DNA from: Oribacterium sp. NK2B42
GTDB taxonomy: Bacteria > Bacillota > Clostridia > Lachnospirales > Lachnospiraceae
Direction: 5' to 3'
Assembly: GCF_000424445.1 (NCBI RefSeq)
Contig: NZ_AUJX01000003.1
Location: 124,001 to 188,000 of the forward strand
DNA length: 64,000 bases
The notes beneath the pieces are model-generated. The model was not told the origin of the DNA. It searched no databases and was given only the letters and a program-made list of their open reading frames with translations. This document shows, piece by piece, positions 15,521-18,599 of the stretch. The first letter of the stretch is position 1. Each line of letters opens with the position of its first letter. The position numbers and the translations under genes were made by a program.

Positions 15521-15703
15521 ATGTTAGGTAATTTCAGCTACAAGAATGCAACAAAACTATATTTTGGGGATGACTCCCTTAAGTATCTGAATGATGAACT
15601 TCCCAAGTATGGAAAAAATGTTCAGCTGATCTATGGAGGCGGATCCATCAAGAAAAACGGTATATATGATGAGATCAGGCAGATTCTTAAAGATTCGCTT
15701 TAA
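15521..15703 (+). pseudogene. Iron-containing alcohol dehydrogenase, N-terminal remnant
   Basis: Sixty codons (MLGNFSYKNATKLYFGDDSL, KNVQLIYGGGSIKKNGIYDEI) match the first domain of butanol-dehydrogenase-like enzymes, which are about 390 residues long. It stops before the NAD-binding GGGS motif and the metal site. It keeps a strong ribosome binding site (GGAGG). The intact enzyme at 35116 is a different, less similar member of the family. Confidence 0.82.
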
Positions 15704-16421: not shown

Positions 16422-16459
16422 TTGTAACTGTTGAAATTACAACAAGCCTGCGTTAGAAT
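16422..16459 (+). promoter_or_regulatory. Promoter with operator before the Rrf2 gene
   Basis: TTGAAA (16431-16436), a 17-base spacer and TAGAAT (16454-16459) form a good promoter. The palindrome TTGTAA-N9-TTACAA (16422-16442) covers the -35 box, a typical repressor placement, and is probably the Rrf2 autoregulatory site (inference). Confidence 0.6.
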
Positions 16460-16531: not shown

Positions 16532-16972
16532 ATGCAGATTTCGAGCAGATTTACGGTGGCATTACATATCTTTGCCTGTGTTGATACATTTAAGGATCAA
16601 TATAAGGTGACCAGTGACTTTCTGGCATCGAGCATCAATACTAATCCCGTCATAATCAGAAAGATACTCACGCAGCTAAAGAATGCCGGACTGATCAATG
16701 TAGCCAGGGGAACCGGCGGAATCGAACTGACAAGAGATTTATCAGAGATAACCTTCTTTGACGTATATGAAGCGATCGAACCTGTGGAAGACGGCGACCT
16801 GTTCCGATTTCATGAAGCACCAAATCCAGACTGTCCGGTTGGAAGGAACATTCATGCGCTTCTGGATGATAAGCTAAAGGCGATCCAGAATGCGATGGAA
16901 GCGGAAATGAAGAAGTACACGCTTCTGGATCTACGGACAGGGATGAAGGAACTTCTGGCTAAAGAAGCTTAA
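16532..16972 (+). CDS. Rrf2-family transcriptional regulator
   Basis: A 146-residue protein starting MQISSRFTVALHIFA, with the winged HTH in YKVTSDFLASSINTNPVIIRKILTQLKNAGLI and the wing VARGTGGIELTRDL. Only one Cys is present in the usual sensor region (NPDCPVG), so it is not the three-Cys Fe-S type but nearer to YwnA-like members. The start at 16532 has GGAG nine bases upstream. It is probably autoregulated through the palindromes just upstream and may control the neighbouring oxidoreductase genes. Confidence 0.87.
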   Translation: MQISSRFTVALHIFACVDTFKDQYKVTSDFLASSINTNPVIIRKILTQLKNAGLINVARGTGGIELTRDLSEITFFDVYEAIEPVEDGDLFRFHEAPNPDCPVGRNIHALLDDKLKAIQNAMEAEMKKYTLLDLRTGMKELLAKEA

Positions 16973-16975
16973 GAG

Positions 16976-17008
16976 AAGGGACTCCGGTAAACAGCCGGGG
17001 TCCCTTTT
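16976..17008 (+). terminator. Terminator of the Rrf2 gene
   Basis: A 12-base-pair stem (AAGGGACTCCGG with CCGGGGTCCCTT, one G-T pair) and a T4 tail follow the stop codon by 4 bases. Confidence 0.8.
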
Positions 17009-17023
17009 AAGAAGGAGAAGAGG

Positions 17024-17163
17024 ATGGAGACAAAGGACTATTTTAACTATGTAGTTCATGAGATACACAGGACAATCGTGGCGACAGTAGATGATGAAGG
17101 CCTTCCGGTCACTGCGGAAATTGTATGACGGCCTGTCCGGTGGGAGCGGTGGTTAGGAGATGA
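17024..17163 (+). pseudogene. Pyridoxamine phosphate oxidase-like/ferredoxin protein, deleted
   Basis: A strong AAGGAGAAGAGG site and ATG open a frame with METKDYFNYVVHEIHRTIVA and VDDEGLPVT, the start of a split-barrel flavoprotein with a ferredoxin tail. After 34 codons the frame stops, and an adjacent frame gives CMTACPVGAVV, a piece of a 4Fe-4S ferredoxin motif. The middle of the gene is deleted. Its end overlaps the sirtuin gene start region. Confidence 0.65.
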
Positions 17164-17168
17164 TCGAC

Positions 17169-18332
17169 ATGAAGAATATAACGCAGGAAGAACGCCTGGA
17201 TTATCTGGTTGAAGCGTTTAAGACGGATTCCGGGGAATATAAGGATATCGAAACGCCAAAGGATGCGGAAGGTAAAAGGAGGATCCTCAGATCGCTCATG
17301 AACATCCGAATGCCGCGGAATATTTCGTCTGATGTGCTGCGGGTTCAGGATGAATATCTGAAAGGACGCAGTGAAGAGAAAGGAATGAATGCCGTGAGAT
17401 ATTTTAGTAGAAGTATGTCCTATGGGAAGGGAAGCAAAGAAGAGCAGATAAGCCGACTGAAAAAAGAGATTAATGAAGCCGATGCAATTATTATTGGTGC
17501 AGGGGCAGGTTTATCCACATCTGCAGGATTTACATACAGCGGAGAGCGCTTTCAGAAGTACTTTTTCGATTTTGAAGAGCAGTATGGCTTTCATGACATG
17601 TATTCCGGTGGATTTTATGTGATGCGGTTAGACCCTGAAACTTCATGGGCCTACTGGGCGAGAAATATTTATATCAACCGCTATATGGGAGCACCAAAGC
17701 CTGTATATGATATGCTGCTGGAGTTGGTTAAAGAAAAAGATTATTTTGTGATTACAACTAATGTTGATCATCAGTTCCAAAGGTCTGGCTTTGATAAGAA
17801 AAGACTGTTCTATACTCAGGGAGATTATGGCCTGTTCCAAAGTATCAATCCGAGGGTCAGGAATACCTATGACAATGAAGATTGGGTTATGAAGGCGATG
17901 GAAGCCCAAGGTTTTATTTTGGATGAAACCGGCGTTTTTCAACTTCCAGAGGATGGAAAAATCAGTATGAGGATACCAACTAAACTGATTCCTAAGTGCC
18001 CTGATGATGGAAGCAATGTTGCCATGAATCTGAGAGCGGATGATTCATTTGTGGAAGATGATGGATGGTATAGGGCATCCGCAGCATATTCTGATTTCAT
18101 CAGAAGACATGAAAATCTGCATGTTCTTTATCTTGAACTTGGAGTTGGAGCCAACACTCCTGTTATAATAAAGTATCCTTTCTGGCAGATGACATTGGTA
18201 AATGAGAAGGCTGTTTATGCCTGCTTAAATTATGGTGAAGCATTCTGTCCGGAAGAAATTGAAGATAGAAGCATATGTATTGATGGTGATATTGGGGATG
18301 TTTTAAGTAATGTCTGCAAAATGTCCGCATAA
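17169..18332 (+). CDS. Class M sirtuin fused to the N-terminal region of a macrodomain hydrolase
   Basis: A 387-residue protein. Residues 1-72 (ITQEERLDYLVEAFKTDSGE, RILRSLMNIRMPRNISSDVL, RVQDEYLKGRSEEKG) match the N-terminal helical part of bacterial protein-ADP-ribose hydrolases, which normally precedes a macrodomain. The macrodomain is absent. Residues 73-380 are a class M sirtuin: NAD loop GAGAGLSTSAGF (110-121), TTNVDHQF (196-203), and QGDYGLFQ, where Gln 217 stands in the place of the canonical catalytic His, as is known for this class. SirTM enzymes ADP-ribosylate lipoylated GcvH-like proteins in redox response. The tail SNVCKMSA comes from the TGTCYGCA repeat. Start 17169 has AGGAG 9 bases upstream; 17160 is possible. 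Confidence 0.8.
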   Translation: MKNITQEERLDYLVEAFKTDSGEYKDIETPKDAEGKRRILRSLMNIRMPRNISSDVLRVQDEYLKGRSEEKGMNAVRYFSRSMSYGKGSKEEQISRLKKEINEADAIIIGAGAGLSTSAGFTYSGERFQKYFFDFEEQYGFHDMYSGGFYVMRLDPETSWAYWARNIYINRYMGAPKPVYDMLLELVKEKDYFVITTNVDHQFQRSGFDKKRLFYTQGDYGLFQSINPRVRNTYDNEDWVMKAMEAQGFILDETGVFQLPEDGKISMRIPTKLIPKCPDDGSNVAMNLRADDSFVEDDGWYRASAAYSDFIRRHENLHVLYLELGVGANTPVIIKYPFWQMTLVNEKAVYACLNYGEAFCPEEIEDRSICIDGDIGDVLSNVCKMSA

Positions 18333-18346
18333 TGTCTGCAAAATGT
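18309..18346 (+). repeat. TGTCYGCA repeat element, copy 2
   Basis: Three tandem units TGTCYGCAWAA run across the end of the sirtuin gene, which reads through the first two. A promoter-like stretch shared with 13257-13310 follows (18355-18410, with CTTGCCATGCTATAATGTC) and leads to the GNAT fragment. Confidence 0.6.
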
Positions 18347-18413: not shown

Positions 18414-18599
18414 ATGAGGAAAATGATTATTAGAAGATATACGGAAAATGATTTGCCGGAGATTATCAGAATTTGGAACGAAGTTGTGGAAGAAGGAATC
18501 GCTTTTCCGCAGGAGGAACTATTGAATTCGAAAAGCGGAGCAGAGGTTTTTGCGGCACAGAGTTATACGGCTGTTGCTATTATTTTATGGGCGGGGTAA
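18414..18599 (+). pseudogene. GNAT acetyltransferase, N-terminal remnant
   Basis: Sixty-one codons (MIIRRYTENDLPEIIRIWNE, VVEEGIAFPQEE, FAAQSYTAVA) are the start of a GNAT-family protein of about 160 residues. The acetyl-CoA binding motif is missing, and the frame is cut just before the ATG of the ACT-domain gene. The first 13 codons also occur at 14012. Confidence 0.78.

Follow-up and report, generated by a model that had tools for sequence, protein, structure and literature searches.

How has a class M sirtuin (SirTM) of Oribacterium sp. NK2B42 come to be joined in frame to the first part of a macrodomain protein, and has it been left as a writer without an eraser? SirTM and Zn-macrodomain (Zn-macro) proteins are known as independent pairs, in extended operons with GcvH-L and LplA2, and as fungal fusions (in the accessible parts of PMC11490716 and PMC4518038). 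An earlier note on this DNA had proposed that about 72 N-terminal residues of a macrodomain protein run straight into the sirtuin, either by an in-frame deletion or as a writer that lacks its eraser. The window analysed is the whole stretch of 64,000 nucleotides, C2:124001-188000 in the contig numbering of this genome. Its features are summarized in Table 1.

Table 1. Features of the fused locus, in positions of the window
Feature	Position	Strand	Basis or remark
Putative Rrf2 operator TGTAACTGTTGAAATTACA, inverted repeat TGTAAC-N7-ATTACA	16423..16441	+	Upstream of Rrf2
Rrf2-family regulator, 146 aa	16532..16972	+	Comparison with C6; families scanned on the C6 copy
Flavin/4Fe-4S gene remnant, 34-codon frameshifted 5' end	17024..17128	+	Read from the C6 alignment
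Ferredoxin-like 3' tail of the flavin/4Fe-4S gene (HCGNCMTACPVGAVVRR)	17110..17163	+	Out of frame with the gene start
Fused gene, 390 aa	17160..18332	+	Zn-macro leader (1 to ~75) plus SirTM (~72 to 390)
Leader part, three-helix bundle of Zn-macro proteins	17160..17386	+	Locus comparison
Junction, 12 bp AGAGAAAGGAAT, common to the L027 leader and the G481 SirTM start	17375..17386	+	Exact word match
SirTM part	17375..18305	+	91.3% identical to G481 overall
Catalytic region, TTNVDH (N201) to QGD (Q220, Gln replacing His)	17754..17825	+	SirTM alignment, 5a3a match

The fused gene is an uninterrupted open reading frame of 390 codons, with an ATG at 17160, a stop codon ending at 18332, and an AGGAG kept ahead of the ATG. 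The ATG at 17169, taken as the start in the earlier note, is the second in frame. Residues 1-116 are 64% identical to the Zn-macro protein encoded on contig C6 of the same genome. In sequence searches of the PDB, residues 9-89 match residues 5-81 of the Zn-macro protein 8rsi (E = 7e-10), residues 96-383 match the Streptococcus pyogenes SirTM (SpySirTM; 5a3a, E = 6e-46), and residues 85-382 match the sirtuin half of fungal Mfs1 (8rsn). Residues 8-84 also match positions 3-79 of 265 in the NCBIfam model NF003163, 'protein-ADP-ribose hydrolase' (E = 5e-10), where a match to the leader alone stays below the full-length cut-off of 272 bits. No Pfam family, Macro included, exceeded its cut-off on the fused protein, whose residues past the leader are SirTM, and none matched the C6 SirTM at E = 0.001. 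Chance matching is no concern, given the strength of both matches and the presence in the genome of a separate, intact pair of genes that the two halves also match. The frame is confirmed as a SirTM with some 72-75 residues of a Zn-macro leader in front, and the proposed similarity of its first 72 residues to macrodomain proteins is borne out by 8rsi. Short direct repeats with 11 bp spacing (TAATGTCTGCAAAATGT) at 18308-18346 overlap the end and stop codon of the gene.

A search of the whole genome gave five macrodomains, all above cut-off. None lies within the window, as had been stated from the sequence; the one on this contig, at C2:105431, is outside it. One, at C6:20842, lies in a 271-codon frame. 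The operon on C6 (loci L003 and L006) encodes an Rrf2 regulator of 146 aa, a PNPOx-like/4Fe-4S protein of 206 aa, a Zn-macro protein of 270 aa and a SirTM of 342 aa, and the genes for the last two overlap. The gene order of the window is that of C6 in reduced form. The Rrf2 gene and the start of the gene that follows it are 92% identical between the two, positions 17110-17386 are 89.5% identical, and the sirtuin 80.8-81.5%. The description of a writer without its eraser holds for the fused locus, from which the macrodomain is gone, but not for the genome, where the intact Zn-macro protein of the second operon could act as an eraser in trans. A third, fragmentary macro leader of ~31 residues lies in a 104-codon frame on contig C19 (L010:1504-1593).

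The earlier note had also pointed to the absence of GcvH-L and LplA2. In the whole genome there was one GCV_H match, in a frame of 427 aa, which scored 20.7 bits against a cut-off of 22.2, and no LplA-B_cat match to a lipoate ligase at E = 0.001. The operon is therefore not of the extended type. That absence stands, but the C6 pair has neither partner beside it either, so it says little about the fused gene.

Upstream of the fused gene, the Rrf2 regulator differs from that of C6 at three of 146 residues; the family matches of the C6 copy include the redox-sensing HypR, below cut-off. The inverted repeat ahead of it is likely to be the Rrf2 operator. The loose pattern TGTAA..TTACA, scored without a chance control, precedes Rrf2 in 24 of 41 loci including the window and C6, and is absent in 17, some of which have little upstream sequence. 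The flavin/ferredoxin gene has lost ~481 bp relative to C6, and its start meets a stop after 34 codons. The joint within this remnant carries CACTGC, or CACTGCGG when the front of L027 is compared with the tail of C6. Over 154 bases (16888-17041) the window is identical to C6, inside a stretch that is otherwise ~90% identical, which suggests a recent exchange or gene conversion between the paralogous operons. Two short open reading frames lie beside the operon. The product of that at 15521-15703, 60 aa long, matches the N-terminal part of iron-containing alcohol dehydrogenases; that at 18414-18599 encodes a 61-aa piece that gave no Pfam match and that we take to resemble the start of an acetyltransferase.

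The two parts of the gene come from different lineages. We compared them with the best 80 of 563 confirmed related loci (L-numbers), taken from named genomes. Positions 17110-17386 are nearest to L027, from an uncultured Clostridia MAG, with 96.8% identity over 277 bases against 89.5% for C6. In a tree of leaders the window falls in one clade with L027 and C6 (SH-aLRT = 100). Yet the SirTM of L027 is only 75% identical to the sirtuin of the window. The sirtuin start is instead closest to genome G481 (locus L149), with 97.3% identity over 17375-17740 (356 of 366 bases), while the leader of G481 is 75% identical to that of the window. In G481 leader, macrodomain and sirtuin are all present at full length, but its sirtuin gene contains a run of 10 N, at which the aligned frame changes, and may not be intact. 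After 17740 its identity to the window is 77-95% by stretch. Over the whole SirTM part G481 is the nearest of five compared, at 91.3%, followed by L012 at 82.1% and C6 at 80.8%.

Sites that distinguish C6-type from Butyrivibrio-type sirtuins reveal a mosaic. All 14 in 17377-17500 are Butyrivibrio-type and none is C6-type; in 17800-18100 there are 33 C6-type and 10 Butyrivibrio-type, and from 18100 onwards 12 Butyrivibrio-type and three C6-type. In a whole-gene SirTM tree that did not include G481, the window clusters with C6, L014 and L027 (SH-aLRT = 100). We read this placement as probable averaging over a mosaic gene, and it speaks against a simple Butyrivibrio origin of the sirtuin. We considered that the mixture was made at the fusion, and rejected this: G481 shares part of it, and C6 is a closer match than G481 in only two patches of the window, ~17741-17880 and, by a single base, 17967-18046. 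Because part of the mosaic is already present in G481, it is a weaker guide to how the fusion came about.

At the joint the two lineages share a 12 bp word. AGAGAAAGGAAT occurs once in L027, within the leader, once in G481, at the sirtuin start, and once in the window, exactly at the joint. It is also present in the sirtuin starts of L019 and L020, and is absent from the scanned C6, L012, L014 and L122 loci. When two 100-base stretches were shuffled, a match of at least 12 arose in one of 2000 trials. The longest word common to leader end and SirTM start within a single locus is 8 bp in L027, 8 bp in C6, and 11 bp in G481, the last elsewhere, away from the joint. The placement of the 12-mer, its rarity in shuffles and the shorter words within L027 and C6 lead us to favor recombination between lineages at microhomology. 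Compared with C6, 625 bp are missing at this second joint, a loss that takes in the entire macrodomain and ~25 residues at the N-terminus of the sirtuin. Since 625 mod 3 = 1, which is the offset of the two overlapping C6 frames, the sirtuin falls into the frame of the leader.

A plain deletion within a C6-like operon fails as the whole story. The leader is nearer to L027, and the start of the sirtuin was found nearer first to the Butyrivibrio type and then to G481. The in-frame deletion proposed earlier is right in that the macrodomain is gone and the frame kept, but it leaves unexplained the joining of two operon lineages at 12 bp.

We sought the fusion in other genomes, using genus, family and order samples that overlap. 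No intact fusion was found elsewhere among 17 genomes of the genus, its own included (seven with a match), nor among the matches listed for 299 genomes of the family (148 with a match); a family search of 397 genomes at E = 1e-33 gave one match, the NK2B42 genome itself. An 87-base query across the joint matched 10 of 392 genomes of the order at E = 1e-8, with at most two candidates scored per genome. Among the matches listed, only that in NK2B42 extends across the joint; the match in G481 is to the sirtuin side, with 98% identity. A conserved fusion carried by all other strains, which the earlier note had considered as a designed protein, was thus not seen in the genus, family and order genomes searched. 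The plasmid collection gave no match of at least 60% identity, and the viral collection gave two partial loci. One of these, L137:364-1585, has leader, macro and SirTM; its macro gene carries an in-frame internal deletion, and stop codons around a second gap interrupt its SirTM frame.

Among the best 80 of the 563 related loci, 58 have the macro gene immediately upstream of the sirtuin, and 68 have a macrodomain match in the stretch read (both strands, E = 1e-4). Seven of the 12 without a match have at least 1.5 kb of upstream sequence. Just one other leader::SirTM joint occurs in this set. L043:4001-5017 has an independent joint, where 24 residues of macro leader are in the same frame as the SirTM but a stop codon stands between them; further upstream this locus also has a separate pair of leader and macro. 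In L033:1-1450, Rrf2 and SirTM are kept, the sirtuin being open over the stretch read, while the macro gene and most of the flavin gene have been lost by other deletions. The macro genes of L082:1566-2000 (Oribacterium sp. WCC10, NZ_FOPH01000029.1), L086:1272-1700 and L133:1471-1900 are cut at nearly the same place, after CIDK/CIDN, and all have tails with SITQV, those of L082 and L086 being identical in different genomes. These truncations perhaps reflect a shared insertion. Four loci with truncated macro genes gave no Rfam match.

We also considered whether writers without any eraser form a wider pattern. Erasers were sought in 10 genomes from an earlier plus-strand table, with L027 and L014 as controls; the set includes L043, with a macro gene ~1.5 kb upstream, and L045, which has a macro match, and omits L050, L057 and L091, which are cut near contig ends. 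Nine of the 10 genomes matched the C6 Zn-macro protein at 48-78% identity, with partial matches in those of L051 and L077, and the MAG of L033 has just a weak match of 34%. Genomes without an eraser are rare in this small sample, and the wider pattern was rejected.

Taken together, we think it probable, at roughly two chances in three, that the fused gene is a young recombinant of two SirTM/Zn-macro lineages and probably an active writer, with its eraser supplied in trans. The front, comprising Rrf2, the start of the flavin/ferredoxin gene and the macro leader, would come from an operon of the L027/C6 type, and the sirtuin start, with probably most of the sirtuin, from one of the G481 type. 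The parts would have met at the 12 bp identity, with loss of the macrodomain and of the sirtuin's own first residues, leaving one open frame. Because the sirtuin has C6-type patches in places where G481 does not, we infer that incoming homologous DNA used one homologous arm and one microhomology joint, a pathway that we take to be homology-facilitated illegitimate recombination. The high identity of G481 over the whole sirtuin strengthens the G481 origin and weakens the inferred pathway a little. The leader would then have been carried along as an orphan three-helix tail, the fused gene would be under the same Rrf2-type control as the intact C6 pair, and the C6 Zn-macro protein would erase in trans. 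Counting against this explanation, no genome was found in which the two direct parents occur together, and the match to each parent is inexact; furthermore short common words are not rare here, as that inside G481 illustrates.

Might the gene instead be a dead copy in a decaying operon, with a frame that is open merely for want of time since the fusion? In favor of this, the flavin/ferredoxin gene is disrupted, no macrodomain is left, short gene fragments occur close by, the comparable joint of L043 is interrupted by a stop codon, and the fusion is unseen in the other genomes searched. Against that, all 390 codons are open, Rrf2 and the operator-like site are intact, and the catalytic residues are conserved. 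The replacement of His by Gln, given as residue 217 in the earlier note, is found at Q220 in the 390-aa numbering and aligns with Q137 of SpySirTM; the Q220-G221 (QG) motif is invariant among 78 aligned SirTMs. N201 and R292 align with SpySirTM N118 and R192, and GVGANTP at 328-334 is the class motif GVGx[NT]TP. Mutation of N118, Q137 or R192 dramatically decreased the activity of SpySirTM (accessible text of PMC4518038). Just one of 124 near-invariant SirTM columns is changed in the fused protein (A209S), and the median of the 78 sequences is also one, in a count that omits L023, L031, L043 and L071, which have stop codons, and any sequence shorter than 280 residues.

Codon changes point the same way. 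Those specific to the window, in a set without G481, are 30.5 synonymous against 22.5 non-synonymous, most of which may predate the fusion. As a rule of thumb, a ratio of about 1:3 is expected where there is no selection. For pairs with the window sirtuin dN/dS is 0.05-0.10, likewise without G481, figures that are indicative only since dS exceeds 1 in all six pairs. Most of the history behind these values predates the fusion, and divergence since the joint is so small that selection after it is hardly measurable. An AlphaFold model of the fused protein (mean pLDDT = 77.8) has SirTM 5a3a as its best PDB match (E = 1.2e-22), in a loose overlay with rmsd = 6.1. On the evidence of sequence and model, the fused protein most likely retains the SirTM fold and the ability to transfer ADP-ribose from NAD+ to a target other than GcvH-L, and its expression and activity are plausible. 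We therefore regard a dead copy as doubtful, while giving it serious weight.

A second alternative is an origin in two steps, in which a hybrid operon with an L027-type front and a G481-type sirtuin formed first, and the macrodomain was then lost by slippage between 12 bp repeats. The in-frame deletion would then be right, but as the second step. This would account for the position of the joint exactly on the 12-mer; moreover a comparable deletion, at a repeat of 6-8 bp, accounts for the loss of the adjacent upstream flavin/ferredoxin gene, and this operon carries deletions in several of the related loci. Yet it needs one step more, none of nine sequences scanned contains the 12-mer twice, and the internal words of L027 and C6 are shorter. 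We consider it unlikely, a little more so than a dead copy.

It is improbable that the fusion is useful, the leader giving the writer a new contact or new regulation. The leader sequence is kept, differing from L027 by five synonymous and two non-synonymous changes, and natural macrodomain-SirTM fusions exist in fungi. The three-helix bundle is required in Zn-macro proteins, where its deletion leads to loss of zinc coordination (accessible text of PMC11490716). That role requires the macrodomain that is missing here, however, and the fusion is intact in just one of the genomes searched. Nor does the model place the leader with confidence: its three helices (9-24, 36-47 and 56-69) have block pLDDT values of 43-69, the leader having been modelled without alignment support from an alignment of sirtuin rows only. 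To our knowledge the bundle has no function on its own, and we therefore treat the leader as vestigial. In one improbable version it would dock the extra SirTM onto the usual contact of the Zn-macro leader; the same signal would then be written by two enzymes, one without a built-in eraser, and erased by one.

An assembly artefact joining two operon copies is scarcely credible: the assembly is in 95 contigs and a paralogous copy is present, but the leader side is not the C6 copy, the assembly has no third copy of the leader beyond the 31-residue fragment, the junction lies within a 229-kb contig, and a 12 bp overlap is far below usual assembler word lengths.

The preferred reading, a recombinant of two lineages, can be set beside the known systems. 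Like SpySirTM, the fused protein has the sirtuin core and keeps the N, Q and R positions and the class motif. It differs in that the Zn-macro leader replaces the sirtuin's own N-terminus, with no macrodomain gene beside it and with no GcvH above cut-off or LplA in the genome. The usual linkage of SirTM to a Zn-macrodomain gene is reduced in the window to the leader alone, with the intact partner in trans on C6, and we read this as secondary loss because 58 of the 80 related loci keep the macro gene immediately upstream. The leader resembles that of 8rsi, but the catalytic macrodomain with its zinc-binding loop is wholly absent. As in fungal Mfs1, Zn-macro material stands ahead of SirTM in a single chain. 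Mfs1 keeps its macrodomain, whereas only the leader is left here, so the fused protein is a look-alike of Mfs1 and not a member of that type. Unlike the extended operons, the fused locus has neither GcvH-L nor LplA2 beside it. The C6 operon has the same order, the same kind of operator-like site and a near-identical Rrf2, but its macro and SirTM genes are separate and overlapping, and its sirtuin is more distant than that of G481.

In the part of the SirTM/Zn-macro literature surveyed, we found no report of a leader-only fusion or of a SirTM operon with Rrf2 and flavin/ferredoxin genes. This is one recombinant gene, seen in one genome, and its weight is correspondingly modest. It offers a base-resolution view of a SirTM/Zn-macro operon reshuffled between lineages, in which the eraser drops out and the writer stays open. 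The genome further points to a SirTM system without GcvH-L and LplA2, associated with a regulator of the Rrf2 family and a flavin/ferredoxin protein.
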